The notes under the pieces were generated by a model. It searched no databases. It was given only the letters and a program-made list of their open reading frames with translations, and was not told the DNA's origin. From Candidatus Geothermarchaeota archaeon (GTDB taxonomy: Archaea; Thermoproteota; Nitrososphaeria; Geothermarchaeales; JDFR-13), in the NCBI GenBank assembly GCA_015523605.1, contig WAKC01000039.1, forward strand, positions 1 to 36,442: 36,442 nt of DNA, given 5' to 3'. The position numbers and the translations under genes are program-made. Positions within the stretch are counted from its first letter, which is position 1, and the number at the start of each line of letters is the position of its first letter. Below, one piece after another: positions 19,315 to 33,985 of the stretch.

Positions 19315-20322
19315 ATGGCGTTGCTACCAGGTTCAAAAGCTTTATTATTTGCTTCCGGTGGAGGGGGAGATATAGCTTCGGCTGCACTCCTAAAATATCT
19401 TTTAAATGATGTATATAACTCCATATTGCTCGGTTCCATACCATGGGAAAGGTTTAAATATGATCCTAAGCCTGGCCCGATTAAATACGAGGAGGTTAGG
19501 AATGGAGTGGTTCGTGATGGCTATATGATCGTATCTGGAGATTCTTACGCGATTCGAGATGGTAGAGAGGTCTTCTTCCAAGCGGCTAAGGTGGCTAGGT
19601 TTTTGGATGAGGAGGTCTTCATAGTATCTCCTATATATGGCTTCAAATCATTTGTCAAGGGGATTCGAAATGTGATGGTAGACTATGGACTGGATACTTT
19701 TATAGCTGTGGATGTCGGTGGGGATATCCTATGTAGGGGTGATGAGGATGAGTTGTGGAGTCCAATGGCGGATGCATATGGATTGGCAGCTGCCTATCAA
19801 CTATCACTAGATGGGTTTAACAGTATGGTGGCTGTAGTCTCCCCAGGTTCTGATGGCGAGCTTCCATGGAATTATCTGAGGAAGCGGCTTCACGAACTTT
19901 ATATAGAGGGGTCTATTATACGGGTAATTGGATTTGGATCTGGCGATACCGAATTTTATAGTGAACTCCTTAAATATGTCGATACGGAGGCCAGTCGATT
20001 GGCTTATGACGCCTTGGTTAATGGGTTTGGGGAGAGGAGGATAAGGGGTGGGTCTAGACATTTAGAGTTGGGAATCCACTCTACTCTGACATTCTTTATA
20101 GACCCGAATCCAATTTATAGGGATAGTCTGCCGTCTCACGTTATAATAGAGTCTGACTCTTTTGAAGAGTCGAATATGAAGCTGATTGAGAATGGAGTCC
20201 CTACAGAGTATGAGTTGGAGAAGTTGATATTTGATTTAAGTAGGTTTTATGTGGATGAAAAAGAACTTTATACTATTGCCAGGAATAAATTGATGGAATA
20301 TATTAAAAGAAGAAGACATTAA
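19315..20322 (+). CDS. DUF1152 family protein
   Basis: 335 aa, the normal size for the family. The N-terminus has the glycine-rich nucleotide-like loop FASGGGGDIASAALL (residues 12-26), followed by AVDVGGDILCRGDEDELWSPMADA (about 147-170), the most conserved part of DUF1152. These proteins are widespread in archaea and resemble nucleotide- or sugar-binding Rossmann-like enzymes, but no function is established. The gene has a TATA-like palindrome 28 nt upstream and no Shine-Dalgarno. The next gene, the Pot binding protein, has its own promoter, so cotranscription is not required. Confidence 0.8.
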   Translation: MALLPGSKALLFASGGGGDIASAALLKYLLNDVYNSILLGSIPWERFKYDPKPGPIKYEEVRNGVVRDGYMIVSGDSYAIRDGREVFFQAAKVARFLDEEVFIVSPIYGFKSFVKGIRNVMVDYGLDTFIAVDVGGDILCRGDEDELWSPMADAYGLAAAYQLSLDGFNSMVAVVSPGSDGELPWNYLRKRLHELYIEGSIIRVIGFGSGDTEFYSELLKYVDTEASRLAYDALVNGFGERRIRGGSRHLELGIHSTLTFFIDPNPIYRDSLPSHVIIESDSFEESNMKLIENGVPTEYELEKLIFDLSRFYVDEKELYTIARNKLMEYIKRRRH

Positions 20323-20403: not shown

Positions 20404-21612
20404 GTGGCATCCCGTCGTGACTTCCTTAAGGTTGCAGTGGCTGGTGCGGCTGGGCTGGCGCTTGGCGGAGCGGCTGGATATTTCGCGAGGCAGGGGGAGG
20501 TGGACCGCCTCCAGAAGGAGGTTGAGAGGCTGATGGAGCAGGCTGGGGTGGAGGCCCCCCAGTTAGAGGAGAATTTCAACCTGTTTAACTGGACTTGGTA
20601 TGCCAATCTTGCTTTGATTGAGGAGTGGGCTAAAGAGAATAATATTAAAATTCAGATGGACTTTTATGAGAGTAATGACGAACTTGTGGCTGAGTTAGAA
20701 TTGGGAGCTAGAGCCTATGATGTGGTTGTCCCATCAGCCTCCTATATACCGTCTCTAATTGAGAAGGGTCTCCTCCAGAGAATAAACCTGGATAAGATTC
20801 CTAACCACCAATACATTCCAGAGTCTTTTATGGGTCGGGAGTGGGATCCAGATAATGAATATACCCTCATCTATAGCTATGGAACGACTGCAGTGGCATA
20901 TAACGAGGATAAGATGGGTGGTGATACAATAACTAGCTGGGGTGACCTGTTAGACGCTGACAATCCTGATTCTATTCTTAGGAGACATGCCGGTAAGATC
21001 ACCATGTTAACAGAATCTATCGAGGTTATGGATGCTGCTGCTATCTACTTGGCCACTCAGAAGGGAGAGGATGTAATGGATTGGATTACCACACTTGATG
21101 AGAATAAGTTGGAGGAGATGGCTAACGTCCTGATCAAGCAGAAGCCATACCTATATGGATATGCGAGTACTGAGGAGTATATGGAGGAACTCCCCATAGG
21201 CGAGAGGTTCTATATATCCCAGAGCTGGAATGGAGATATTGCCGGTATTATTTGGGACTCTGACGAGTATGAAGTTAAGATGACGATTCTAAACGAGAAT
21301 ATCAAGTACGTAGTACCTGAAGAGGGTGCAATCGCTTGGTTCGATAACTTCGCTATACCAGCTAATGCAGAGAATATAGAGAATGCCCATGCATTTATAA
21401 ACTGGTTCCTAGAACCCGTTATCTCAGCTATTCATACGATGACAATCAAATACCCATTCCCAGCAGGTATTAAATACGTGGCTCAAGAGATCAGGAACGA
21501 CCCAACGATATTCGTGCCTGAAGATCTCTATGACAAGCTATACTGGACGTCTTTGACCCCCGAGATGGAGGCGCTGTGGAACGACTATTGGCAGAGGGTA
21601 CAGAGTGCATAG
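20404..21612 (+). CDS. potD: Spermidine/putrescine-type ABC transporter substrate-binding protein, Tat-exported
   Basis: 402 aa. A Tat signal SRRDFLK (residues 3-9) plus a hydrophobic stretch AVAGAAGLALGGAAGYF routes it out folded. No lipobox Cys is present; a short coiled coil (QGEVDRLQKEVERLMEQAG) follows as a spacer. The mature domain fits the PotD/PotF group: NLFNWTWYANLALIEEWAKENNIKIQMDFYESNDELVAELELGARAYDVVVPSASYIPSLIEKGLLQ. GTG start, with GGGTGGG 3 nt upstream. It leads potB and potC. The polyamine ligand is inferred from the family; other small organic cations are possible. Confidence 0.9.
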   Translation: MASRRDFLKVAVAGAAGLALGGAAGYFARQGEVDRLQKEVERLMEQAGVEAPQLEENFNLFNWTWYANLALIEEWAKENNIKIQMDFYESNDELVAELELGARAYDVVVPSASYIPSLIEKGLLQRINLDKIPNHQYIPESFMGREWDPDNEYTLIYSYGTTAVAYNEDKMGGDTITSWGDLLDADNPDSILRRHAGKITMLTESIEVMDAAAIYLATQKGEDVMDWITTLDENKLEEMANVLIKQKPYLYGYASTEEYMEELPIGERFYISQSWNGDIAGIIWDSDEYEVKMTILNENIKYVVPEEGAIAWFDNFAIPANAENIENAHAFINWFLEPVISAIHTMTIKYPFPAGIKYVAQEIRNDPTIFVPEDLYDKLYWTSLTPEMEALWNDYWQRVQSA

Positions 21613-21615
21613 GAT

Positions 21616-22518
21616 ATGGAGGGAGATACGTTTATAGATAAGATACGTAGATCCCGATCCCTCAAACTTTTTTTATTACTAGGGCCGGGTCTAATATTCC
21701 TAGCTATATTCTTCTTTGCACCCTTCGTAATCTCCTTGATGCTAAGTCTTGGAATGCTTGATAAGGAGGTATATACATGGTATCTGACCTTTGAAGTAAC
21801 CCTCAGATACTATATAAGATTCTTTACTAATCCAGGTACGGTTAGGGCTATAATACTGTCTTTTTACTATGCATCTGTAACCACTATTGGAACGTTGCTT
21901 CTCGCATATCCCATGGCATATTATATGGCGTTTAAGATGGATAAGAGGATGAAGACGACGGCTGTCTTCATAATATTCCTACCTTTCTGGATAAACTTTA
22001 TATTAAGGGTTTATGCGATGAGGTTTATACTTCATGAGGCTGGCCCCCTTCAGCAGGGGCTTATATCCATTGGGCTCCTTAGCGAGCCTATACCTATATT
22101 GGGTACAGATATAGCTGTCATTATAACCATGATCTACAGCTACTTAATATTCATGCTACTCCCAATATTTGGGGTGGTAGAGAAGATTAATAAGGAGTAT
22201 ATAGAGGCTGCATATACTCTTGGAGCCCCTCCCCTAAAAACCTTCCTTAAAATTACCTTACCCCTCTCGAAACCTGGTATAATAGCTGGTTCCCTACTCG
22301 TCTTCATCCCCGCACTAGGGGAGTTCGTCATCCCAATACTGGTGGGGGGTGGTAGGGCATATACAATCGGCCGTTTAATATATGACAATTTCATTAGGAT
22401 AAGCGGTATATTGGGTTGGGCTATGGGTTCCGCGGCTGCAATGGTCTATATAGGTTTGATCCTGATATCTACGTATATCTATTTCAAGTTTGTAGGGAGG
22501 GAGATAACGTTAATATGA
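21616..22518 (+). CDS. potB: Spermidine/putrescine-type ABC transporter permease, PotB type
   Basis: 300 aa with about six TM helices. It shows the PotB pattern: N-terminal LLLGPGLIFLAIFFFAPFVISLMLSLG, ATTYPMAYY-like LLLAYPMAYYMAFKM, and the cytoplasmic coupling loop KEYIEAAYTLGAPPLKTFLKITLPLSKPGI (EAA motif) that docks to the ATPase. PALGEFVIPILVGGG is typical of the polyamine class. Its stop overlaps the potC start (ATGA). It needs a PotA ATPase, which is not encoded near it in this window. Confidence 0.92.
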   Translation: MEGDTFIDKIRRSRSLKLFLLLGPGLIFLAIFFFAPFVISLMLSLGMLDKEVYTWYLTFEVTLRYYIRFFTNPGTVRAIILSFYYASVTTIGTLLLAYPMAYYMAFKMDKRMKTTAVFIIFLPFWINFILRVYAMRFILHEAGPLQQGLISIGLLSEPIPILGTDIAVIITMIYSYLIFMLLPIFGVVEKINKEYIEAAYTLGAPPLKTFLKITLPLSKPGIIAGSLLVFIPALGEFVIPILVGGGRAYTIGRLIYDNFIRISGILGWAMGSAAAMVYIGLILISTYIYFKFVGREITLI

Positions 22519-23285
22519 GCATGGTAGATAGAGCTTTAAAAATAATATTTTGGTCGATAGTCACGCTTACATATCTACCTATAGTTGTTATGATACTCTT
22601 CTCCTTCAATTCATCCAGGTCAAAACTAGTCTTTACTGGGTTTACTCTTGAGAACTATATATCCTTGATTAACAATGCAAATGTTTGGGAGTCCTTCATA
22701 AATTCTATATGGACCGCTGCAGTGGTGGTGTTAGTATCACTACTACTCGGAATTCTCATGGCATACGCCGTTGTAAGATATAAACCTAGAGGGTCTACCT
22801 TATTGGACTCGCTTATAATGGTACCCATTATAATACCAGAAATAGTTGAGGCTGTTACCCTCGTTATCTTCCTGATTATAGTAGGGTTTAAACTAAGCCC
22901 CCTAACGATAATTATTGGCCATGTAGCTTTTGATGCTCCTCTTGCATATCTTGTTTTGAAGGCAAGGTTCCAGGGATGGAATAGGGAGTATGAAGAGGCG
23001 GCAATGACGCTTGGAGCGGATGAAATAACAACATTTTTCAAAATTACTATCCCCCTTATGATGCCAGCTATTTTAGCTGCGGCATTTCTAACTTTCATAT
23101 GGAGTTATGACGACTTTATAAAGACCTTCTTCACAAGACCTACAGGATTCGATACACTCCCAGTATATATCTGGAATAGGGTGGCAAGAGGTAGGCTGGA
23201 ACTAGATATAAATGCGTTATCCACCATTATCGTGGCGATATCATTCCTCTTCACATATGTAAGGATGAAGCTGGTGAAAGAGTAG
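22515..23285 (+). CDS. potC: Spermidine/putrescine-type ABC transporter permease, PotC type
   Basis: 256 aa from the ATG that overlaps the potB stop by 4 nt; the track ORF is extended 33 codons into potB and should be trimmed. It has about six TM helices. The PotC hallmarks are YLPIVVMILFSFNSSRS near the N-terminus, the EAA loop REYEEAAMTLGADEITTFFKITIPLMMPAI and the late FIWSYDDFIKTFF. GGGAGGGAG lies about 11 nt before the start. It is the last recognisable transporter gene of the operon; genes further on encode unknown surface proteins, not an ATPase. Confidence 0.92.
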   Translation: MSMVDRALKIIFWSIVTLTYLPIVVMILFSFNSSRSKLVFTGFTLENYISLINNANVWESFINSIWTAAVVVLVSLLLGILMAYAVVRYKPRGSTLLDSLIMVPIIIPEIVEAVTLVIFLIIVGFKLSPLTIIIGHVAFDAPLAYLVLKARFQGWNREYEEAAMTLGADEITTFFKITIPLMMPAILAAAFLTFIWSYDDFIKTFFTRPTGFDTLPVYIWNRVARGRLELDINALSTIIVAISFLFTYVRMKLVKE

Positions 23286-23825: not shown

Positions 23826-24442
23826 GTGGGGCTGTTAAAGAACCCCTACTCACGAGACTAGCCTATTACCGGCATGTCAATCTATTTGCTTTGATCGCTG
23901 GTCTCATAACCTTATATCTAGTATTAAGAAGTGGGGAGTTGGTGATACTTGTTTCTAATATTGTGGAGGGAGATACTATAACGATCGGTTTGGGAGAGAT
24001 GGAGATAAACGTCTTGGGACGTAGCCTCTCAATACCCATTCTAGACTATCTAGTCATATCCTCTAAATTATCATATCTAGTCGCCTCCCTCTCCCTCATA
24101 ACAGGTTCTCTAGTTAAAGATGAAGAGCTATCAAAAGGTTTAATCGGGTTTAAACTTCCTAGCATGACAGGCCTGATCCTCACAGTGGTAGCCCTTATCC
24201 TAATGTATCTAGGCGGTTCCTTCAATCCCCTCAGTAACGAGGTCTCGATGGCACTCACCATCAATATAGGTGGTAGGATATACTCTATACCAATTTCATA
24301 CTCCATAAAACCCACTTTAAACACATATCTCGCATTAACGGCTAATCTCATGGCTATTCTTGGGAGACTTGCGGTAAGAGGTAAGACGAATTATATCAGG
24401 AGGCTCAGAGAACTATCGACCTCAATATTTATTCCCATATAG
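23822..24442 (+). CDS. Integral membrane protein of unknown function
   Basis: 206 aa, not recognised. Hydrophobic helices are visible at about residues 21-45, 77-97 and 112-131, and perhaps 165-185. Between them are beta-like outside stretches (VEGDTITIGLGEMEINVLGRSLSIPI; SMALTINIGGRIYSIPISYSI). The ATGA overlap with the preceding gene means coupled translation and suggests the two proteins form a pair. The basic C-terminus (RGKTNYIRRLREL) probably lies inside. The signals are membrane topology and gene coupling only. Confidence 0.72.
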   Translation: MSGAVKEPLLTRLAYYRHVNLFALIAGLITLYLVLRSGELVILVSNIVEGDTITIGLGEMEINVLGRSLSIPILDYLVISSKLSYLVASLSLITGSLVKDEELSKGLIGFKLPSMTGLILTVVALILMYLGGSFNPLSNEVSMALTINIGGRIYSIPISYSIKPTLNTYLALTANLMAILGRLAVRGKTNYIRRLRELSTSIFIPI

Positions 24443-24510
24443 TCCCACAATTTCCCATTAACTCCCTAAATAAAGACTATTGAGAGTTCTTCTATATGGT
24501 GAGATCTGGG

Positions 24511-25905
24511 ATGAAGGTAAGGATATTATCACTCACGATCTTGTCGATATTGCTGTTCTCACTATTTGGGGGATTCATAGGCTATACGGCTGGGAATGTA
24601 AATAGTTATATCAAGTCTGTAGAGGATTTCATAAATTATTATCTGAATTTGGCGGATGAGAATGGTATAGAGATTCCACAGGATCTAAGGGAGAAGGTGA
24701 ATAAGTCGTTTGAATATCTTGAGCTGGCTAGGAATGAATCTAACCGTTATAAGGCATATCAATATATTTTGGAGGCTATGCTGGAATTCTCACCAGTCTA
24801 TTTCTATATCCAATCAGAGTTGAATATGGAGTATACAATCGATAAATCCCTTTATTTAGAAACTATAGCTAAGAAGAGGGATATCCTGATTCAGATGAAT
24901 AGGACGTTAAGAAACTTTGAAGACACCGTGGTTATATGTCTAGATATTAATGTGGAGATTAACAAGTCAGATAGAATCCAAAACTATCTATATAGAGATA
25001 TATGTCTTGAATTGGATAGAGAGGCGTTAAGGAAGGGGATTAATGAGGCTCTGAACAAACTCAAGTATCTAGAGGAGAATCTAGGTAGGATGTCTCCAGA
25101 GGAGATTGAAGAGGTACTATCTGAAATAAACAGTATAATTGCCAATGTAACTATCCAGATTAATACCGCAGTTGGTAGGAATTGGAGAAGTGTAGGGATG
25201 GTACAGGGGGTATCAATAGCATTTAGAAAGATTCTAGTGAGTATAGTAAACAGTATAAACAGTTCGATTAGACATATAGAGGCTGGTAATACGGAAGGTG
25301 CACTTGAGATGTTAAGGGGTTTGGAGAATAGGTTGGAGGTATACCTTAATTTGTTAAACAAATCGATAAGATATGGGGAGAGATTCAATATATCAACCTC
25401 TATACTCGATAATGTAAGAGAGATGGTTAGAATACTCACTGATGTGAGGGAGTTGATAGCCTCAGCAATATCAGCCCTAGAAGCAGGTGACGAAGCTTCA
25501 GCCCTCACCTATCTCGAGCAGGCACTAAGTATTCTACTGGGTTACATATCAAATTATAGTAGTCAGCTACCAATACCAAGGAGGTACATCTCGATTATCA
25601 TCAACGCTTCTGTAGAGTTGAGGAATAGGATAAAGATGAGTATGAGGAGATTTATGCAGATGGATACTAAGAATGTTGAGAGGATGTTGAATAATTTGGA
25701 GAGTCAGATTAACCGGCTTGTTAGACAGTACGAATCTGGAATGCTTCCAAAACAGGTGTTCATAAATATGCTTAACAATATTAGGGAGGTTCTAATCAAT
25801 TTGAAGGATGAGCTTAGTAGTATGGAGGGTGTTAATCAGGAGTTAATAGATAGGGTGGACCAGTTAATAAGGTATATAGACTCTCTACTAGCTAAATATA
25901 GTTAA
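24511..25905 (+). CDS. Secreted all-helical (coiled-coil) repeat protein, unknown
   Basis: 464 aa from ATG 24511, which has GGTGAG 7 nt upstream; the track start is ATG 24496. A signal peptide (MKVRILSLTILSILLFSLFGGFIGYTAG) is followed by about 430 residues of nearly unbroken amphipathic helix. It contains TPR-like turns such as IEAGNTEGALEMLRGLE and LEAGDEASALTYLEQAL, spaced about 65 residues. Two Cys (148 and 170 in track numbering) could form a disulfide. Several N-glycosylation sequons are present. There is no C-terminal anchor. It resembles the 653-aa protein at 32024 in kind, and each lies next to a membrane-anchored winged-helix regulator. It may be the ligand, partner or target of that regulator; this is inference. 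Confidence 0.75.
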   Translation: MKVRILSLTILSILLFSLFGGFIGYTAGNVNSYIKSVEDFINYYLNLADENGIEIPQDLREKVNKSFEYLELARNESNRYKAYQYILEAMLEFSPVYFYIQSELNMEYTIDKSLYLETIAKKRDILIQMNRTLRNFEDTVVICLDINVEINKSDRIQNYLYRDICLELDREALRKGINEALNKLKYLEENLGRMSPEEIEEVLSEINSIIANVTIQINTAVGRNWRSVGMVQGVSIAFRKILVSIVNSINSSIRHIEAGNTEGALEMLRGLENRLEVYLNLLNKSIRYGERFNISTSILDNVREMVRILTDVRELIASAISALEAGDEASALTYLEQALSILLGYISNYSSQLPIPRRYISIIINASVELRNRIKMSMRRFMQMDTKNVERMLNNLESQINRLVRQYESGMLPKQVFINMLNNIREVLINLKDELSSMEGVNQELIDRVDQLIRYIDSLLAKYS

Positions 25906-25934
25906 GCCGTTGATAGTTATAATCGGGATAAGAT

Positions 25935-26801
25935 ATGAATAGAGACACGAGTAAGTCCCTCTACTCCATCCTCTTTCTATTATTAATTCTAGTCCTGTAC
26001 AATATAGTATCCACCTACCCACAGACTATAGTTAGGGATGTATCTATAGAAGTGAATATCGATGGGACCTCCATAATCTATTACAAGTTATACGTACCAA
26101 ATCCACCCGTAGACGTAACGATAAGAGTCCCGGATGAACCTATATATTTTACGGTTTATGTAAATGGCTCTGAAACTCCAGCATACTATGAGGATGGACG
26201 GCTTTCCTTCTATGCAGCTTCAAATAATGTGGAGATAGAGGTTTTATCTGGTGGCTTGACCCGAAAAGAAGGGATTAGATGGATATTTGAAGTAAGTATG
26301 CAATACCCATTTAAATTGATTCTGCCCAGGAACTCTCTAATACTCAATATTTCCACACAGGATTTCTCGATATCCGTAGAGAATGATGGTAGACTATCCC
26401 TCCTCCTACCAAAGGGAAACGTAACCATAGTTTACACCTTCCCACCGGCCACTGTAGTAGATGAGGGTGGTGAAGCCCAGCAGGTAGGCCTCAAACCTGA
26501 CTTTAATATAATACCTATTGCAATTCTAACTGGATTCTTGGCAATTATAGTTCTATATCTGCTTAAGGGAAGAAGAAACGTTGAGGTTGAGGTTATAGAG
26601 GATGAGTTGGATGATCGTGATAGGAAGATATTGGATGTTTTAAAGGATGGTATGAAGACTGCGCAGGAGATTATGGATGTAACAGGTATTCCAAAATCTC
26701 CATTATATAGAAGGTTGAAGAAACTCGAGTCTTTAGGCTATATAGGCTCTATTAGGAGATCCGGTGTAAAATATTTCTATTTGAAGGGGGAGTCTGAATA
26801 G
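25935..26801 (+). CDS. Membrane-anchored transcriptional regulator: beta-rich ectodomain, TM, winged helix
   Basis: 288 aa. An N-terminal hydrophobic segment (about residues 9-28) is followed by an outside beta-rich domain (about 30-185) with FTVYVNGSETP. Next come a TM helix (about 192-210), a basic stop (KGRR) and a cytoplasmic winged-helix domain (about 225-285): DRDRKILDVLKDGMKTAQEIMDVTGIPKSPLYRRLKKLESLGYI. The architecture matches the archaeal predicted membrane-associated regulators (COG2512-like). The DNA-binding half is clear; the sensed signal is unknown. It lies 29 nt after the secreted helical protein gene and is probably cotranscribed. A paralogue with the same layout is at 31092. 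Confidence 0.82.
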   Translation: MNRDTSKSLYSILFLLLILVLYNIVSTYPQTIVRDVSIEVNIDGTSIIYYKLYVPNPPVDVTIRVPDEPIYFTVYVNGSETPAYYEDGRLSFYAASNNVEIEVLSGGLTRKEGIRWIFEVSMQYPFKLILPRNSLILNISTQDFSISVENDGRLSLLLPKGNVTIVYTFPPATVVDEGGEAQQVGLKPDFNIIPIAILTGFLAIIVLYLLKGRRNVEVEVIEDELDDRDRKILDVLKDGMKTAQEIMDVTGIPKSPLYRRLKKLESLGYIGSIRRSGVKYFYLKGESE

Positions 26802-26835
26802 TTAATATCTTCACTATACACATTCTATTGTTGTA

Positions 26836-27909
26836 ATGATTCGGAGGGAGGCGATTGAAAACTATTTTAGAAGGTTGTATCCAAGGCTGGAGGATATCCG
26901 TTTTCTTGGTTTTGAGGGGGAGGATGTAAAGGGTTATGGCTATGGAGAGCCGGTTATGGTGGAGATCGTCGTCGATGGGGGGAGGAGGAGAAGGTTTGTC
27001 ATATCGACGGTGAAGGAGGATAGATTTGGCCATGAATATATCTCTGATAGGGCGGGTGAGATTCTCTGGAGCTACAAAGCCTTTAACAAGTTACCCAGGC
27101 ATGTAAAGGCGGTTGACGTAGGATATGTATCGGTAGATGGTGAGCTTAAATCAACTAGAGACTTCGATGAATTCTATTTGGTTACTGAGTATGTCTCGGG
27201 GAGGCTCTATAAAGACTTTCTCTTTGAAATATCTAACTTGGATAGGCCTAGAGAAGTGGATCTAGAGCTTGTCGATATACTAGTTAATTATCTAGTTGAT
27301 ATCCATAGTGTGAAGCCGGAGGTAGATCCCTGGCTTTATAATAGGAGGATTAGGGATTTGGTGGGGCATGGAGAGTGTATCATGGGGATTATAGATAGCT
27401 ATATATGGAGTGATAAAAAGGTTATAAACCCAAGTTTTCTCCAGGAGATCGAGGAGAAAGTTGTTAGATGGAGGTGGAGACTTAGAGAGTATATGGATAG
27501 GCTATCTATCGTACATGGAGATTTTCATCCATGGAATATCCTTGTAGATGAGAATTTGGAGATTAAAGTCTTGGATAGAAGTCGGGGCGATTATGGTGAG
27601 CCTGCGGATGATGTGGCAGCCCTTACAATTAACTATATATTCATAAGTCTATTGACGAAGAAAGGGTTTGAAGAGCCATTTAAAACTCTCTATAGAAGGT
27701 TCATAGAAGGATATATCGATAAGACTGGTGATGAAGATATTCTAAGGGTTATACAGCCTTTCTATACATGGCGTGCCTTGGTAGTCGCTAATCCTGTATG
27801 GTATCCAGAAATGAATAGGGAGATTAGGAGGAAGATTCTGGAGTTCGCATCTAAAGTCTTGGACCACGAATATATCACCCTAGATGTAATTGAGGAATTG
27901 GTGTCTTAA
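26836..27909 (+). CDS. APH-fold kinase (aminoglycoside-phosphotransferase-like), substrate unknown
   Basis: 357 aa. The kinase catalytic loop is SIVHGDFHPWNILVD (Asp229 as the base, Asn233 as a metal ligand), followed by VLDRSRGDYGEPADDVAAL, where Asp247 takes the metal-binding role; RS replaces the usual aromatic-Glu after that Asp. The N-lobe (about 35-120) includes VTEYVSG, the hinge. Such enzymes phosphorylate small alcohols (choline, sugars, homoserine and others); nothing points to antibiotics. The downstream APS-kinase-like gene starts at the base after its stop (TAAATG), so the two work together in all likelihood. No ribosome-binding site precedes the ATG. Confidence 0.82.
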   Translation: MIRREAIENYFRRLYPRLEDIRFLGFEGEDVKGYGYGEPVMVEIVVDGGRRRRFVISTVKEDRFGHEYISDRAGEILWSYKAFNKLPRHVKAVDVGYVSVDGELKSTRDFDEFYLVTEYVSGRLYKDFLFEISNLDRPREVDLELVDILVNYLVDIHSVKPEVDPWLYNRRIRDLVGHGECIMGIIDSYIWSDKKVINPSFLQEIEEKVVRWRWRLREYMDRLSIVHGDFHPWNILVDENLEIKVLDRSRGDYGEPADDVAALTINYIFISLLTKKGFEEPFKTLYRRFIEGYIDKTGDEDILRVIQPFYTWRALVVANPVWYPEMNREIRRKILEFASKVLDHEYITLDVIEELVS

Positions 27910-28428
27910 ATGGCATTTATAATATGGTTTACTGGCCTACCCTCCGCTGGGAAGACAACCCTCGGTAAACTCTTGACTGAATACCTAACTAATAAAGGTA
28001 TTGAAGTTGAATGGCTGGACTCCGATGTTCTGAGGAGGGTTCTAACGCCTAAGCCTAGATATACGGAGGAGGAGCGGGACTGGTTCTACAGTGTCTTGGC
28101 GTGGCTAGCATATAGATTCTATAGCCATGGTATAACAGTCGTTATATCTGCGACTGGGAATAAGAGGAAGTATAGGGATAGACTAAGAAGTATGACGAAG
28201 GATTTTGTGGAGGTCTATCTCAAATGTAATATCGATGTCTGTATAGAGAGGGATGTTAAGGGAGTGTATAGACTTGGCTTGACGGGAAAGTCAAAGACTG
28301 TTCCCGGTATTGGAGTCTCTTATGAGGAGCCTATGAATCCCGATATCACTATCGAGACTGATAGATATAGTGTTGATGAATCGTTCAATATCTTAATAGA
28401 AAAATTGAGGGGGATGGGTCTAATCTAA
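27910..28428 (+). CDS. Adenylylsulfate-kinase-like P-loop kinase
   Basis: 172 aa. The Walker A is GLPSAGKTT (residues 9-17). VEWLDSDVLRRVL is the DxDxxR substrate loop of APS kinases. VEVYLKCNIDVCIERDVKGVYR and VPGIGVSYEEPMNPDITIETD match the family's C.ERDPKGLYKKA and G..dpYE.P.NPe. APS kinases add a 3'-phosphate to adenylylsulfate to make PAPS, the sulfate donor. It has a GGTG ribosome-binding site inside the last codons of the APH gene. No sulfurylase or sulfotransferase gene is nearby, and the partner is a sugar-type kinase, so it may act on another substrate. The stop overlaps the convergent threonine dehydratase gene by 4 nt. Confidence 0.83.
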   Translation: MAFIIWFTGLPSAGKTTLGKLLTEYLTNKGIEVEWLDSDVLRRVLTPKPRYTEEERDWFYSVLAWLAYRFYSHGITVVISATGNKRKYRDRLRSMTKDFVEVYLKCNIDVCIERDVKGVYRLGLTGKSKTVPGIGVSYEEPMNPDITIETDRYSVDESFNILIEKLRGMGLI

Positions 28429-29648
28429 GAGTGCTCCATCCATATTCCAGACTTCTTCAAACCATCTCTTATCTTCTTTACAGCCTCGGTGGTGGGTACC
28501 TCAACAATTATCCTTAGCAGAGTATATCCTGGAGGTGAGTAGATATCCATTCTATCATGGAATACATCAACTATATTACCTCCATTCCTGGCTATTATCC
28601 CCGTAATCTTATTTAGGGTGCCTGGTACATCTAATGCATATCCTTCTAAAGTGACTATTTTTCCGGCCTCGGATAATCCCCTCAGTAATATTCTATATAT
28701 GTATGTCAAATCAATGTTTCCTCCTGACAATAGGAGCACAGTCTTCTTACCTCTAAATATCTCTCTATATCCATCAAATATCGTGGCGACTGTTGTGGCG
28801 CCGGCTCCTTCAACAACCAGTTTATTGCGTTCGAGTAGGAAGTATATAGCTTGTGCAATAGACTTTTCAGTGACTGTTATAACTTCGTCTACATATCTCT
28901 TGATGAATTCAAAGGTTATATCGCCGAGCTTCTTAGCAGCCAATCCATCAGCCAGTGTAGGCTTAAGCTCAACCTCGGTCAACTCACCCTTCTTCAATGC
29001 CTCAGAAGCTTTAGGTGCGGCTTCGCTCTCAACGCCGATCACCTTAATCTCAGGCTTTAATTTCTTGGCTATATATGCTATCCCAGATATAAGGCCGCCA
29101 CCGCCTATCGGGACTACGATGTTATCTACGTCATATAATTCGTTTAGGATCTCCCATGCTAATGTCCCTTGTCCCGCGATTATCACTGGGTCATTGAAGG
29201 GATGTACAAACTCATAGTTCCGCTCCTTAGCTATCTGATAACCCTTTTTAAATAACTCTGCAAAGGATGCATCTAGCAGGACAACCTCTCCACCATAGTT
29301 TTTGGTGGCCTCCACCTTCGATATACTGGCGTTATGGGGCATTACGATAACAGATTTCAAGTTATATATACTGGCTGCATATGCCACTCCCTGTGCATGG
29401 TTCCCAGCGGATACCGCTACAACCCCCTCAACCTTATCCTTCAACTGGGATATCTTTGTAATGGCTCCTCTAACCTTGAAGCTTCCAGTCTTCTGGAGAT
29501 TCTCACATTTCAAGTATATATCTCCCTCTACAATATTCGATAATGTCTTGCTATGCTCCATAGGAGTTTTATGGATATATTTGTAGACGGTTTCAATTGC
29601 ATGTTGGAAGTTCCTATCCACCTTAGAAATTATCTCTTCAAATTCCAA
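28425..29648 (-). CDS. ilvA: Threonine dehydratase (ammonia-lyase), PLP-dependent, with ACT domain
   Basis: 407 aa. It converts threonine to 2-oxobutanoate plus ammonia, for isoleucine synthesis or amino acid breakdown. The PLP lysine is Lys58 in KTGSFKVRGA; the phosphate-binding loop is PIGGGGLISG, and LLSGGNIDL ends the catalytic domain. The last 80 residues or so (IVTLEGYALDVPGTLNKITGIIARNGGNIVDVFHD) form an ACT regulatory domain, which binds an amino acid effector. The start is TTG 29648 with GGTG 6 nt upstream. A 16-bp palindrome stands 34 nt upstream of the start codon. RidA is encoded two genes upstream on the same strand. The biosynthetic versus catabolic (TdcB-like) role is not settled; its size fits the short ACT-containing form. 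Confidence 0.92.
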   Translation of the reverse strand: MEFEEIISKVDRNFQHAIETVYKYIHKTPMEHSKTLSNIVEGDIYLKCENLQKTGSFKVRGAITKISQLKDKVEGVVAVSAGNHAQGVAYAASIYNLKSVIVMPHNASISKVEATKNYGGEVVLLDASFAELFKKGYQIAKERNYEFVHPFNDPVIIAGQGTLAWEILNELYDVDNIVVPIGGGGLISGIAYIAKKLKPEIKVIGVESEAAPKASEALKKGELTEVELKPTLADGLAAKKLGDITFEFIKRYVDEVITVTEKSIAQAIYFLLERNKLVVEGAGATTVATIFDGYREIFRGKKTVLLLSGGNIDLTYIYRILLRGLSEAGKIVTLEGYALDVPGTLNKITGIIARNGGNIVDVFHDRMDIYSPPGYTLLRIIVEVPTTEAVKKIRDGLKKSGIWMEHS

Positions 29649-29681
29649 TTAGGACACCGATAGATATATACCTAATCCAGA

Positions 29682-29697
29682 TTATAACATGTTATAA
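29682..29697. promoter_or_regulatory. 16-bp perfect palindrome upstream of threonine dehydratase (probable operator)
   Basis: TTATAACATGTTATAA is its own reverse complement. It lies 34-49 nt before the threonine dehydratase start and includes the best TATA-like sequence (GTTATAAT on the minus strand) for that gene. A dimeric repressor bound here would cover the promoter. It is also just past the EamA stop codon, so a role at that transcript's end cannot be excluded. Confidence 0.5.
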
Positions 29698-29705
29698 ATA
29701 CATAT

Positions 29706-30602
29706 CTAATCCTCCCTACCCCCCAATACAAGGGTTATCCCTAATATTGTTATGCCCATATAAACGATGATATAGGGGGAGAGGTATTCTTTAAAGAGGA
29801 TATAGGCTAGTATGGATGATACGATGGGCTCTGTAATCACAGGTGCTGTTACCGCGGCCAGTTTCATCCTCTTCAACAGGTAGTTTAGAAGTGTATGACC
29901 CCCAAGCATCGGGACCGTACCTAGTAGGAGGAGATAGAAATATGATTCTAATGGATATCCGGTCATAGGCTCCCCGATTATGTAAACCATAACTAAGCTG
30001 GTTAAAGCCGCGGTAGTATATACATATCCGGTATATGTCATTGTATCGATATTCATACGGATATACTTTCCGATAGCGAAGTAGATTGCGACGGCTATCA
30101 TCCCTAAAAATGAAAGTATACTCCCTAAAATCGGGTCTCCACCCGGTGGAGCAACACCTTCTCTAAACGACTCTATAGATAAGAGGGCTACACCGGAGAA
30201 GGTAAGCCCTATACCAGTATACTCCTTCATAGTATAACGTTCTCCAAAGAAGATGGTTCCTATGACGGCTAAGAGGGCTGGATATCCGTCGACTATAGTG
30301 ACGCTCGGACCTACATTGAGGTGTTGGAGGCTCCACATCCACAGGCCAAAGTGTAATGCCAATGATACTCCGGAGATAACCATATAAAAAACTTCCTTTG
30401 GTGTAGGCTTCTGTAGGGGAGTACCACGTCTAAAAAGGAGTAGCAGTGCAAGTGTCAGAATCGATCCTATTATGAGTCTCCATGAAGCTGCTACGAATCC
30501 GTGTACAGATGCCAGTCTAACAAGTATTGATGCTGCCGATACGTTGACCAATGCTATAGATAATATGATATAATCGAGTGTCCTACTCTCCCTGAACTTC
30601 AA
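29706..30602 (-). CDS. EamA/DMT-family transporter
   Basis: About 298 aa with ten hydrophobic helices in two EamA repeats. The usual features are an N-terminal SAASILVRLA...AASWRLIIGSILTLALLLL and the repeat-ending SIVSSILAYILFKEYLSPYIIVYMGITILGITLVL. The track start (TTG 30632) overlaps ridA, but TTG 30602 follows GGGGGT with 6 nt spacing and is preferred. The substrate is unknown; members export amino acids such as threonine, homoserine or cysteine, or other metabolites. Being placed between RidA and threonine dehydratase hints at amino acid export, which is inference. Confidence 0.88.
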   Translation of the reverse strand: MKFRESRTLDYIILSIALVNVSAASILVRLASVHGFVAASWRLIIGSILTLALLLLFRRGTPLQKPTPKEVFYMVISGVSLALHFGLWMWSLQHLNVGPSVTIVDGYPALLAVIGTIFFGERYTMKEYTGIGLTFSGVALLSIESFREGVAPPGGDPILGSILSFLGMIAVAIYFAIGKYIRMNIDTMTYTGYVYTTAALTSLVMVYIIGEPMTGYPLESYFYLLLLGTVPMLGGHTLLNYLLKRMKLAAVTAPVITEPIVSSILAYILFKEYLSPYIIVYMGITILGITLVLGGRED

Positions 30603-30624
30603 GCATCTACCCCCATATACATAT

Positions 30625-31005
30625 CTACTCAATATATGCTATAGCCTCAACCTCCAAATCCACTCCTTTAGGTAGATTCGATACTCCTACAACCACCCTT
30701 GAAGGCTTTGAACTACTGAAATACTCACTATATATCTTGTTAAACTCCCCATACATGTTAATATCCTTGAGATATACCGTCACCTTTACAACGTCGTCGA
30801 GACTCCCTCCAGCAGCCTCAACAATAGCCTTTATATTATCCAAAACTCTCCTGACCTTCTTCTCAAAATCCCCTTCAACAAGTTCTCCAGTCTCAGGATC
30901 TAATGGTATCTGACCAGCTACAAATAGGAAGGGACCTGCCTGAATACCCTGGCTATATGGGCCTACTGGCTTAGGGGCTTTATCTGTCGAGATGACCTTC
31001 TTCAT
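30625..31005 (-). CDS. ridA: RidA family enamine/imine deaminase
   Basis: 126 aa, full length. It begins [36 protein letters not shown] and contains [13 protein letters not shown] and [13 protein letters not shown], where Arg103 is the catalytic arginine that binds the carboxylate. RidA hydrolyses the reactive 2-aminocrotonate/iminobutyrate released by threonine dehydratase, whose gene lies two genes downstream on the same strand. No Shine-Dalgarno precedes the ATG; a TATA-like TTAAGTATAAC lies about 27 nt upstream, so the transcript is probably leaderless. Confidence 0.94.
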
Positions 31006-31091
31006 AGGAATAAATATCTTATTTAGTTATACTTAACCATTTAAATAGCCTTTTAAAATATTGAATACAAGGTAGATGCAGGTGTATAGAT

Positions 31092-31952
31092 GTGTCGGAA
31101 AAAACGGTTTATACATCATATGTATTTGTAGGTCTAATCACGATACTTCTGATATTCTATTTGGGGATATCCGTATCATCGGGATTCTCTGTTGAAGGTG
31201 CTATTTATATTGAGTCTGATGGTGTACCTAGAATAGTTTTAAATGGGACTGTGGAGAGGAGTCTTGAAAAGATACCCCTCCCAGCTAAGCCTCTCCCAGC
31301 CTCGGTAGCTTTATATGTAAATGGGGAGTTGATAGCCCCAATAGTTGTAAACAATAGTGTGGTAATATCAAGTAGCCCAGGAAGTGAGTTCAGTATCTCA
31401 TATATACCCGAGACCAATATCCAGGATGGTATAGTCATGTTTACATACTTTTCAGATTTCGAGTCATATATCTATGTAGATAAGAATATAGTCCTCCTCA
31501 GCTTACCGACCAACATCTTAGACTCCAGCTATATAGACAATACCTTAGTAATCAAGTTTAAGGGCGGCTATGACATTCAATATGCAGTTAAAGAAGGGGT
31601 TACAACTCCTCCGCCTGAGGTTGATGGCACCAACCTCATGGATATACTCCCGATACTCGTCATTGTATTAGGAGGGGCTGGGATTGCATCTCTTCTACTC
31701 CTTAGGAGGAGGGGGAAGTCTAACACGGAGGAGATAATCGAAGAGTTTATAGATGAGACTGACCGAGCCATATTGGATGTACTTAAAGAAAAAGGAGGCG
31801 AGCTATACCAGAGTGAGATAATGCGGATATTAGGTATTCCCAAGACCACATTGTGGAGACACCTACGTAGGTTGGAAGTATTGGGCTATGTGGAGATTAA
31901 GAAGGAGTATAAGAGGAATAGGGTTATACTGAAGCGTCACTATAGCTCCTAA
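31092..31952 (+). CDS. Membrane-anchored transcriptional regulator, paralogue of the 25935 gene
   Basis: 286 aa, start GTG. N-terminal hydrophobic helix (about residues 9-29), outside beta-rich domain (about 32-178) with VALYVNGELIAP, TM helix (about 183-204), RRRGK stop, then a cytoplasmic winged helix (about 218-280): DETDRAILDVLKEKGGELYQSEIMRILGIPKTTLWRHLRRLEVLGYVEI. The domain order, size and the motifs YVNG, ILDVLK and GIPK..L.R.L..LE.LGY are shared with the regulator at 25935, so the two are paralogues. It is divergent from ridA and is followed 71 nt later by a secreted helical protein. The sensed signal and target genes are unknown. Confidence 0.82.
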   Translation: MSEKTVYTSYVFVGLITILLIFYLGISVSSGFSVEGAIYIESDGVPRIVLNGTVERSLEKIPLPAKPLPASVALYVNGELIAPIVVNNSVVISSSPGSEFSISYIPETNIQDGIVMFTYFSDFESYIYVDKNIVLLSLPTNILDSSYIDNTLVIKFKGGYDIQYAVKEGVTTPPPEVDGTNLMDILPILVIVLGGAGIASLLLLRRRGKSNTEEIIEEFIDETDRAILDVLKEKGGELYQSEIMRILGIPKTTLWRHLRRLEVLGYVEIKKEYKRNRVILKRHYSS

Positions 31953-31983
31953 ATCCTGTGTTCCATATGTTCCGCGTCATCCC

Positions 31984-31991
31984 TTAATATA
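31984..31991 (+). promoter_or_regulatory. TATA-like box before the 653-aa secreted protein gene
   Basis: TTAATATA lies 33-40 nt before the ATG, in the gap after the regulator gene. A start about 26 nt downstream gives a short leader carrying the GGTGA ribosome-binding site. It suggests the secreted protein can be made separately from the regulator. Confidence 0.35.
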
Positions 31992-32023
31992 GTGAAACAT
32001 ATTCTATTCCACTCGGTGAAAAC

Positions 32024-33985
32024 ATGAATAGAGGTTTAATAGCACTATCAATACTTGGGATGTTACTGGCGAGCATTGGATTGGGGTTCTTGGGCGTTGG
32101 CTATGCACAGACACAAGACCCGGTTAAGGAGTTGCTGATTAGGGAGATAACGGTTTATAGAGATGCTATAACGAGGATATTGGATCTAGTGACTGATGAG
32201 ACTCCCTATATCCAGGAGATTAGAGATTATCTTGCCACTTTAAACGCTACAGACCTTAACTCACTTTCTCAGGAGGAGCTGGAGACGATAAGAGATACGC
32301 TTAAGGATTATTTCGATACTCTAAGGGAGATGGTCTCGGTAGACCCAACAATTGGTGAGGAGGTTAGAAAGAGGATTATGGAGGAGGTCTCAGCGGTTAT
32401 CGAGCTTATAGTAGAGAAATATAATATGACTTCCATGAGGGAGTTATACGACCAGGTTAGACAGTATATTGCTACTGGCGAGGTTGACAAGGCCTTAGAG
32501 ATATTGGGTGAGCTTGATAAGGTATTAAGTGAGGTTAGCGTGGACACTCAATCGGAGGAGATTATAAGTGGGATACTGGATATGCTTAGATCCCTAAGTA
32601 GGGATGGTAATGCAACCTCAGTAGAGGCGTTGAATCTGAGTATTGAGAATATTAAGTCGGCCATTGAGGTTTTAATCGATGTTAAGGAATATCTAAGGTC
32701 GATAAATGCTTCTGAAGAGAGTATATTGGCTGTAGACCTTGCTATATCTACACTCAACTCAACAGTATCGATACTTGAGAATGTTAAGTCGAAAGTGGGT
32801 GATACTGTTGTTCCTGGCGAGGTCGGTAAGGCTGTGAATACTACTATGACGGCTGAACTTTTGAGTGAGATTGCAGAGTATAGATGGAAGGTCTCAGCAT
32901 TACTTAACGAGTCCAATAGGCTGGAGAATATGTCGTTGGCCATGAACAAGAGCTATCTATTAACGCTTATAGAAGAGGCTAGAACTGTACTGGTAAATGC
33001 ATCTAACTATCTGAATAAGTCTGAAGCGGCTGCTGTGGAAGGCAACTTGACTGAGGCCTTCAACCTATTCAATAGGGCTAAGGTGGCTGTTGACTATGCA
33101 GAGGAGATCCTCGAGGATGTAGCCAAGGTTTTGGGTACAGAGCTTAAATATAAAGATGAGTATATAGAGAAACCCCTCCCAATGCTGGCTGGTAAATTGG
33201 AAGACCTATCGGGTGATATACAGGAGCTCATGGCAGAAGCGCAGAGGCTGATGAATAATAGTGAGGTGCAAAACAATAACGTGACCCTGACGATGGTCCA
33301 AAAGGCATTAGAATATCTTAACAATGCATCCACATTACTAGATAACGCATGGATACAGTTCTACGCTGGAAACTATACAGAGGCGCTTAAACTATACCGC
33401 GAAGCCTATAAAATGTATGAGGCTGCAGAGCTAAATATTGAGATGGTTAGGGAATGGCTTGATGAGAGTGATGATAGGGATGTCATGGGCCCGATGCTAG
33501 ATAGGATATATGAGTATAAGGAGGAGATTGAGGAACTGAGTACCTGGGCTCTTAGCCTTTATAACAAGGCCGTTGAGAAGAATAACAGTGAGGCTGCACA
33601 GCTAATTCTCGATGCTCAAGAGAAGCTTAAGAATGCTTCAGACCTTCTATACCAAGTCTCAGATCTACTTGCTATAGGGGCATATAATGAGGCATCTGAT
33701 ATTCTAAGTCAGGTAGCTATGCTAATCTCAGATGCAAGACAGAATCTAAATAAAGCGGCTGCAAAGCTTGATGCGATGATGTGGGATGATGGAGATGACG
33801 ACGACACGGATGACGATTCAGACGATGGAAAGGGTGATGGCCGAGAAGGGCATGATGACTGTGAGGACTGTGGCAACGATGGTGATGGAAGGAATGATGG
33901 CGGAGATAGAGAAGGAGGTAGGGACGATTCTGGTAGGAGGAACGGGGATGATAGAGACCGGGGTGATGAAGACGAGAGAGAGTAA
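32024..33985 (+). CDS. Secreted helical repeat protein with acidic Asp/Gly-rich tail
   Basis: 653 aa, unrecognised. Signal peptide about residues 1-28 (ends GYAQT). Residues 30-585 are almost all helix. Three related segments recur about every 105-110 residues, near 308-363, 418-472 and 520-576, with the pattern L.NAS.LL...(G)NYTEA..L...A......A. Another TPR-like turn is YIATGEVDKALEIL (148-161). Many N-glycosylation sequons are present. The last 66 residues are low-complexity, very rich in Asp, Gly and Arg, with a DCEDCG Cys pair; the Asp excess suggests binding of Ca2+ or other cations, or an attachment or spacer role. There is no C-terminal TM. GGTGA precedes the ATG. Confidence 0.78.
   Translation: MNRGLIALSILGMLLASIGLGFLGVGYAQTQDPVKELLIREITVYRDAITRILDLVTDETPYIQEIRDYLATLNATDLNSLSQEELETIRDTLKDYFDTLREMVSVDPTIGEEVRKRIMEEVSAVIELIVEKYNMTSMRELYDQVRQYIATGEVDKALEILGELDKVLSEVSVDTQSEEIISGILDMLRSLSRDGNATSVEALNLSIENIKSAIEVLIDVKEYLRSINASEESILAVDLAISTLNSTVSILENVKSKVGDTVVPGEVGKAVNTTMTAELLSEIAEYRWKVSALLNESNRLENMSLAMNKSYLLTLIEEARTVLVNASNYLNKSEAAAVEGNLTEAFNLFNRAKVAVDYAEEILEDVAKVLGTELKYKDEYIEKPLPMLAGKLEDLSGDIQELMAEAQRLMNNSEVQNNNVTLTMVQKALEYLNNASTLLDNAWIQFYAGNYTEALKLYREAYKMYEAAELNIEMVREWLDESDDRDVMGPMLDRIYEYKEEIEELSTWALSLYNKAVEKNNSEAAQLILDAQEKLKNASDLLYQVSDLLAIGAYNEASDILSQVAMLISDARQNLNKAAAKLDAMMWDDGDDDDTDDDSDDGKGDGREGHDDCEDCGNDGDGRNDGGDREGGRDDSGRRNGDDRDRGDEDERE

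Follow-up and report, generated by a model that had tools for sequence, protein, structure and literature searches.

A 36,442-nucleotide stretch of DNA from a Geothermarchaeaceae contig (hereafter the window) carries two neighboring gene pairs, each made up of a gene for a predicted secreted, helix-rich protein (HEL) and a gene for a predicted membrane-anchored regulator (REG). All four ORFs were found to be real and lie on the + strand, with HEL1-REG1 at 24496-26801 and REG2-HEL2 at 31092-33985, in the two gene orders that the initial annotation had stated. The features of the locus are as follows, gene starts being mechanical calls and signal peptides hydropathy calls.

24433-24466, + strand: candidate HEL1 operator, four TCCC with an exact 10-bp period (24433, 24443, 24453, 24463)
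24467-24474, + strand: TATA-like box TAAATAAA, abutting the last TCCC, so that a half-site would occupy the place expected for a BRE
24496-25905 (alternative start 24511; 469/464 aa), + strand: HEL1, secreted, helix-rich, with a signal peptide, 10 N-glycosylation sequons and a Cys pair 148/170
25935-26801 (288 aa), + strand: REG1, with an N-terminal transmembrane segment (TM), a beta ectodomain, a TM at about 192-208 and a C-terminal winged helix with recognition segment IPKSPLYRRL
31092-31952 (286 aa, GTG start), + strand: REG2, paralogue of REG1, recognition segment IPKTTLWRHL
31960-31983, + strand: candidate HEL2 operator, GTTCC (31960), GTTCC (31969) and TCCC (31980), then TTAATATA (31984-31991)
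32024-33985 (653 aa), + strand: HEL2, secreted, all-helical, with three three-helix repeats of ~100 aa, 19 sequons and an acidic Asp/Gly/Arg tail

Between the two pairs, genes for a threonine dehydratase, an EamA-type transporter and RidA are grouped on the - strand (28425-31005); other genes occupy this place in a second genus of the family. A spermidine/putrescine-type ABC transporter (named by eye), consisting of a binding protein and two permeases with no ATPase gene adjoining, is encoded at 20404-23285, and a gene whose product we take to be DUF1152-like lies at 19315-20322, ~4 kb upstream of HEL1. A DUF1152 gene (PF06626; locus L216, 7021-8052) also directly adjoins a distal HEL2 gene in the Ignisphaera group, and the presence of such genes near HEL in both places may be a coincidence.

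In both regulators, TM prediction and Pfam searches placed a hydrophobic segment at the N-terminus and a winged helix at the C-terminus, with an ectodomain and then a TM between them. The winged helix, the most conserved portion of REG, matches PF13412 in both proteins (E 6e-8 and 3e-10) and was also supported by a PDB profile. An AlphaFold model of REG2 (32 homologues, pLDDT 86.6) placed TMs at residues 3-27 and 182-207, a beta ectodomain at 34-166 and the winged helix at 212-280, with pLDDT values mostly >90 in the ectodomain and winged helix and lower at the TM junctions. As modeled, REG would belong to the membrane-bound one-component regulators, which combine an extracytoplasmic sensor-like domain, a TM and a DNA-binding domain in one chain. 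The ectodomain matches no Pfam family, and its fold gave a weak match to M1 aminopeptidases (E 8e-6, TM score 0.30 of the query) that is a fold resemblance alone, the part resembled being presumably their N-terminal beta domain.

By profile-profile alignment REG1 and REG2 match end to end, ectodomain included (99.7%, E 4e-26), and YVNG is present in both ectodomains; by BLASTP the TM/winged-helix region alone aligns (45%, E 4e-11). This bears out the earlier proposal that the regulators are paralogues sharing YVNG, and settles in favor of homology the question, also raised then, of whether their ectodomains might be unrelated. In a 50-row tree, REG1 joined REG1-like proteins of another archaeal family (98/96) and REG2 fell in a separate 26-row clade (99/98) with regulators of most other families. 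Because they belong to different older clades, REG1 and REG2 are ancient paralogues kept about 5 kb apart, with no recent duplication. REG1-type regulators with the segment PKTPLYRR and no HEL neighbor were seen in another archaeal family (L199, 5059-5886; L200, 5465-6298, - strand). Proteins consisting of a REG ectodomain and a C-terminal TM, with no winged helix, are encoded next to HEL genes in L144 (7845-8762, - strand), L171 (8845-9747) and L220 (6219-6767).

HEL2 was modeled by AlphaFold (pLDDT 69) as an all-helical protein in which three bundles of three helices each follow one another in tandem and the acidic tail is disordered. The repeats, of about 100 residues each (267-369, 384-480 and 488-586), have a common 'NAS..L ... 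G.Y.EA..L' signature, and the Asp/Gly/Arg-rich tail starts at about residue 590. A CEDC motif (Cys 613/616) was noticed in this tail (window 33800-33982), which is possibly metal-binding or wall-binding. The helicity of HEL1 was derived from composition only, as was that of all partners other than HEL2, and such calls are crude. Relatives of HEL2 in the PDB by sequence were mostly designed bundles and a fold search against the PDB gave no match better than E 0.1, so that no function is readable from structure. TPR, FIMAH and other Pfam domains were rejected for HEL, having given sub-threshold matches only, and a viral library search returned nothing useful. HEL proteins range from <300 to 1463 aa, varying with repeat number, and are probably glycosylated surface or stalk proteins of variable length.

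No homology was detected between HEL1 and HEL2 (profile probability 11%); members of the HEL1 cluster occur only in the family of the window, and those of the HEL2 cluster in many families. The initial description of two copies of one module was thus right as to the paralogy of the regulators, which is ancient, and does not extend to their partners. A recent tandem duplication of a two-gene module was rejected, since the regulators are in separate old clades and the HEL proteins do not align.

The orders HEL1-REG1 and REG2-HEL2 are kept in the same genus and in the second genus of the family, and the pairs lie near each other wherever a contig of either genus spans both. In the second genus (two genomes), the genes around and between the pairs differ and the pairs persist, which indicates more than chance. 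Across archaea, an adjacent gene for a helix-rich protein with a signal peptide was found at 49 of 83 regulator loci (19 families; sampled lineages and species counts are non-independent), 29 of these partners being downstream, 10 upstream and co-directional, and 10 divergent. The remaining loci comprise 8 with another secreted gene downstream and 26 without a secreted neighbor. The background for an adjacent secreted helical gene was 13 of 852 other genes in the same loci (59% versus 1.5%). These counts uphold the real association of regulator and partner claimed in the initial annotation, which had considered that regulator homologues might usually lack a helical neighbor. Loci without a secreted neighbor are concentrated in few lineages and include all 10 sampled from lineage f32; REG homologues in f7 and f32 have no helical neighbors, and these two lineages may put the regulator to another use. 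In the reverse direction, the best match to a HEL2 profile adjoins REG in 23 of 29 genomes (E <= 2e-14; count taken from coordinates), the exceptions being four Ignisphaera-group genomes, one other genome and one contig edge. No published description of the REG-HEL pair, the operator or the HEL family was found in the open-licence literature.

A motif shared upstream of both loci, a search for which had been proposed together with the initial annotation, was found: GTTYC/TCCC arrays precede HEL1, HEL2 and other HEL genes. The conserved array of GTTYC half-sites at HEL promoters, phased or inverted and abutting the TATA box, is new here. Within the window, the phased three-TCCC pattern occurs at the HEL1 promoter only (0.32 expected with one mismatch), and the perfect match to the HEL1 array is unique in the 1.35-Mb genome; three phased TCC were found upstream of 5 of 894 control genes. 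Phased TCCC before HEL1 are kept in L063, L064 and L065 in spite of diverged surrounding DNA; L067 retains them in part, around an N-run. The arrangement of the HEL2 operator is the same in L062, L065 and L068, and also in L063 and L064, where it lies inside an over-called ORF start; at this position, as many as four TTCC/TCC spaced by about 10-11 bp were seen in relatives. No operator was seen upstream of REG2 itself.

In other lineages the half-site is GTTTC or GTTCC, phased or in inverted TGRAAC/GTTYCA pairs, and the array ends on the TATA box. Three TTYC at 9-11 bp were present in 10 of 33 HEL promoters from outside the ammonia-oxidizing archaea (AOA) versus none of 898 control genes (shuffle mean 0.01). 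With one HEL promoter taken per family, again outside AOA, at least two GTTYC sites were found in 11 of 12 families versus 34 of 493 controls (p 9e-12), and GTTCC and GTTTC were the most enriched of all 5-mers in HEL promoters. In the Ignisphaera group, TGARACA-N5-TYCA-N7-TATA was found at all five HEL genes lying apart from REG and elsewhere in six genomes only at one REG-adjacent HEL gene, the pattern having been written from these promoters. Since the array is present at HEL genes far from REG, the element tracks HEL, not REG. The half-sites are short, and a loose TTCC pattern gave 10 matches genome-wide versus 27 for the reversed control; being outnumbered by its control, this regulon search was uninformative.

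Ammonia oxidizers form a single family in the sample (f4), with amoA in 12 of 12 genomes tested and in none of 14 control genomes, and have one ATGA-coupled REG-HEL operon per genome. At all 20 loci examined in this family, REG precedes a gene for a secreted protein, and the two genes nearly always overlap by the 4 bases ATGA. In 5 of the 20 the downstream protein is below the helix threshold. The partner in L082 (528 aa) is below this threshold, and in L088, L089, L099 and L101 a 116-aa secreted, low-helix protein replaces the partner at the same ATGA overlap. A small gene lies just upstream of REG, encoding a protein of ~95 aa in most loci and matching the PF14947 winged helix in the one case tested (L090, 8287-8571, - strand). 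Among loci L081-L101, this gene for a soluble protein is located 2-6 bases upstream of REG in most and 86 bases upstream in L097. Most AOA loci are three-gene operons encoding two DNA-binding proteins, one of them soluble. A GTTCC-type array is present at every AOA operon, in most cases as two GTTCCGCT followed by GTTTCA; the strict double site GTTCCGCT-N4-GTTCCGCT occurs exactly once per genome in 10 of 12 AOA genomes, upstream of the operon.

Half-site and recognition segment vary together: TCCC goes with SPLYRR (REG1) and GTTCC with TTLWRH (REG2), and a PKTTLWRH-like segment spans the lineages with GTTYC arrays. Because recognition segment and half-site type go together, we infer that REG binds the HEL-promoter array. 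The explanation that we favor, with a probability of roughly two in three, is that REG acts from within the membrane as a one-component transcription regulator with a single target, the promoter of the gene for its secreted partner HEL. According to the predicted topology, REG would have a TM near the N-terminus, the beta-rich domain outside, a second TM and the winged helix inside. Several winged helices would bind side by side, from the membrane, to an array of GTTYC half-sites that, phased at ~10-13 bp or inverted as TGRAAC/GTTYCA, ends on the BRE/TATA of HEL promoters phylum-wide, and REG would there recruit TFB/TBP. Upstream or BRE-placed sites are generally read as activating from what is known of archaeal activators, and, with an array that precedes TATA and stands in for the usual A-rich BRE, REG is more likely to be an activator than a repressor. 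Less certainly, the ectodomain would contact HEL and report its amount or assembly state at the cell surface, and HEL output would be set by feedback through this domain. That the REG ectodomain senses HEL is a tentative proposal, at somewhat below even odds, and the best hint of it are the ectodomain-TM proteins devoid of a winged helix beside HEL genes, which point to a relation between ectodomain and HEL. Several observations count against a REG dedicated to HEL: the soluble 95-aa winged-helix protein (PF14947) of AOA operons could be the array binder, 26 of the 83 REG loci are without a secreted neighbor, and five AOA partners are below the helix threshold.

HEL could instead be the input: as a surface protein that binds a ligand or senses stress, it would modulate a REG whose targets include other genes besides the operon, by analogy with the action of CpxP on CpxA or of ToxS on ToxR. 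The adjacency of REG and its partner, translationally coupled in AOA, is in line with this, and the ectodomain-only paralogues adjoining HEL fit a physical complex. However, a site found once per AOA genome and a perfect HEL1 array found once in the genome of the window give no sign of a wider regulon, and a length that varies so widely with repeat number is unlike that of a conserved receptor, making this reading unlikely. A slightly poorer candidate is an array belonging to another transcription factor, with REG acting elsewhere and REG and HEL being neighbors since both are surface proteins. The soluble winged-helix protein encoded in AOA operons and the REG genes without a HEL neighbor speak for it, but the array is present in the other lineages examined, in which a soluble gene of this kind was not seen next to REG; moreover, the PKTTLWRH segment spans the GTTYC-array lineages and REG1, with a different segment, faces a different half-site. 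The winged-helix-less proteins of L144, L171 and L220 would also suit a REG whose main task is to anchor HEL to the membrane or to assist in its assembly, with a winged helix freed by proteolysis only under envelope stress; this is less probable again, given that no part of the protein is better conserved than the winged helix and that HEL promoters bear a conserved array. That secreted and regulator genes, both common, adjoin by chance, for which the crudeness of composition-based helix calls leaves some room, is very improbable and already disfavored by the counts (59% against 1.5%, with three gene arrangements in 13 archaeal families).

The dedicated regulator was compared with known systems. 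The nearest described archaeal case is that of ArnR/ArnR1 of Sulfolobus acidocaldarius, one-component HTH regulators located in the membrane whose binding sites are paired cis-elements in the promoter of the surface-structure gene flaB (PMC6396743). ArnR consists of an N-terminal HTH, a HAMP/sensor region and two C-terminal TMs, and its boxes are TCGAC-N5-GTCGA (PMC6396743). Both systems are archaeal and membrane-bound, and both involve a surface-structure promoter with paired boxes. By contrast, the winged helix of REG is C-terminal (212-280) and is preceded by a large ectodomain with a TM on either side, which is the opposite order; HEL promoters carry GTTYC/TCCC arrays (read by eye) in place of the ArnR boxes, and REG has a secreted helical partner gene. 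Given these differences in domain order, boxes and partner, REG is not a member of the ArnR family.

Bacterial membrane transcription factors of the ToxR/CadC type likewise have an extracytoplasmic sensor and an inside DNA-binding domain, with an N-terminal winged helix and one TM, and ToxR also has a neighboring partner, ToxS, which is not the regulated surface product. REG differs in its reversed winged-helix order, its two TMs, an unrelated ectodomain and the lack of Pfam matches to an OmpR-type winged helix or a ToxR periplasmic domain, and is outside the ToxR family. At the level of the DNA-binding domain, REG is close to DUF7343, which matches the winged helix of 25 of 32 REG proteins (E <= 0.01, best 1.3e-9); REG2 of the window scored 21.1 bits against a curated cut-off of 27.6, and REG1 gave no match. 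COG2512-like proteins are archaeal membrane HTH proteins, and no paper relevant to them was found in the open-licence literature. Unlike in this DUF7343/COG2512-like group, the REG ectodomain belongs to no Pfam family, and the helical partner and operator are absent from the literature found. For the feedback model of HEL, the closest functional analogy is CpxP-CpxA, a two-component kinase system in which a small secreted helical protein acts on the sensor controlling its own gene; CpxP, however, is a small unrelated helical protein and CpxA a kinase.

Combined, these results suggest that REG-HEL is a dedicated, undescribed switch that would link the cell surface directly to one gene, from hot-spring archaea to ammonia oxidizers. 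In a bolder version, which we hold possible at somewhat less than an even chance, it would be a phylum-wide single-gene homeostat of hyperthermophilic Thermoproteota and ammonia-oxidizing archaea. In it, a membrane-embedded transcription factor would respond to what the only gene under its control secretes, and would do so through the operator array without leaving the membrane; co-translational secretion may help by tethering the locus there. Prediction from sequence now assigns to a wide group of regulators a likely target, its operator and a candidate signal, which are conserved between hot-spring archaea and ammonia oxidizers. A role is suggested for a repeat-built surface-protein family that had none, and the question of how the archaeal cell perceives and adjusts its envelope becomes directly testable.
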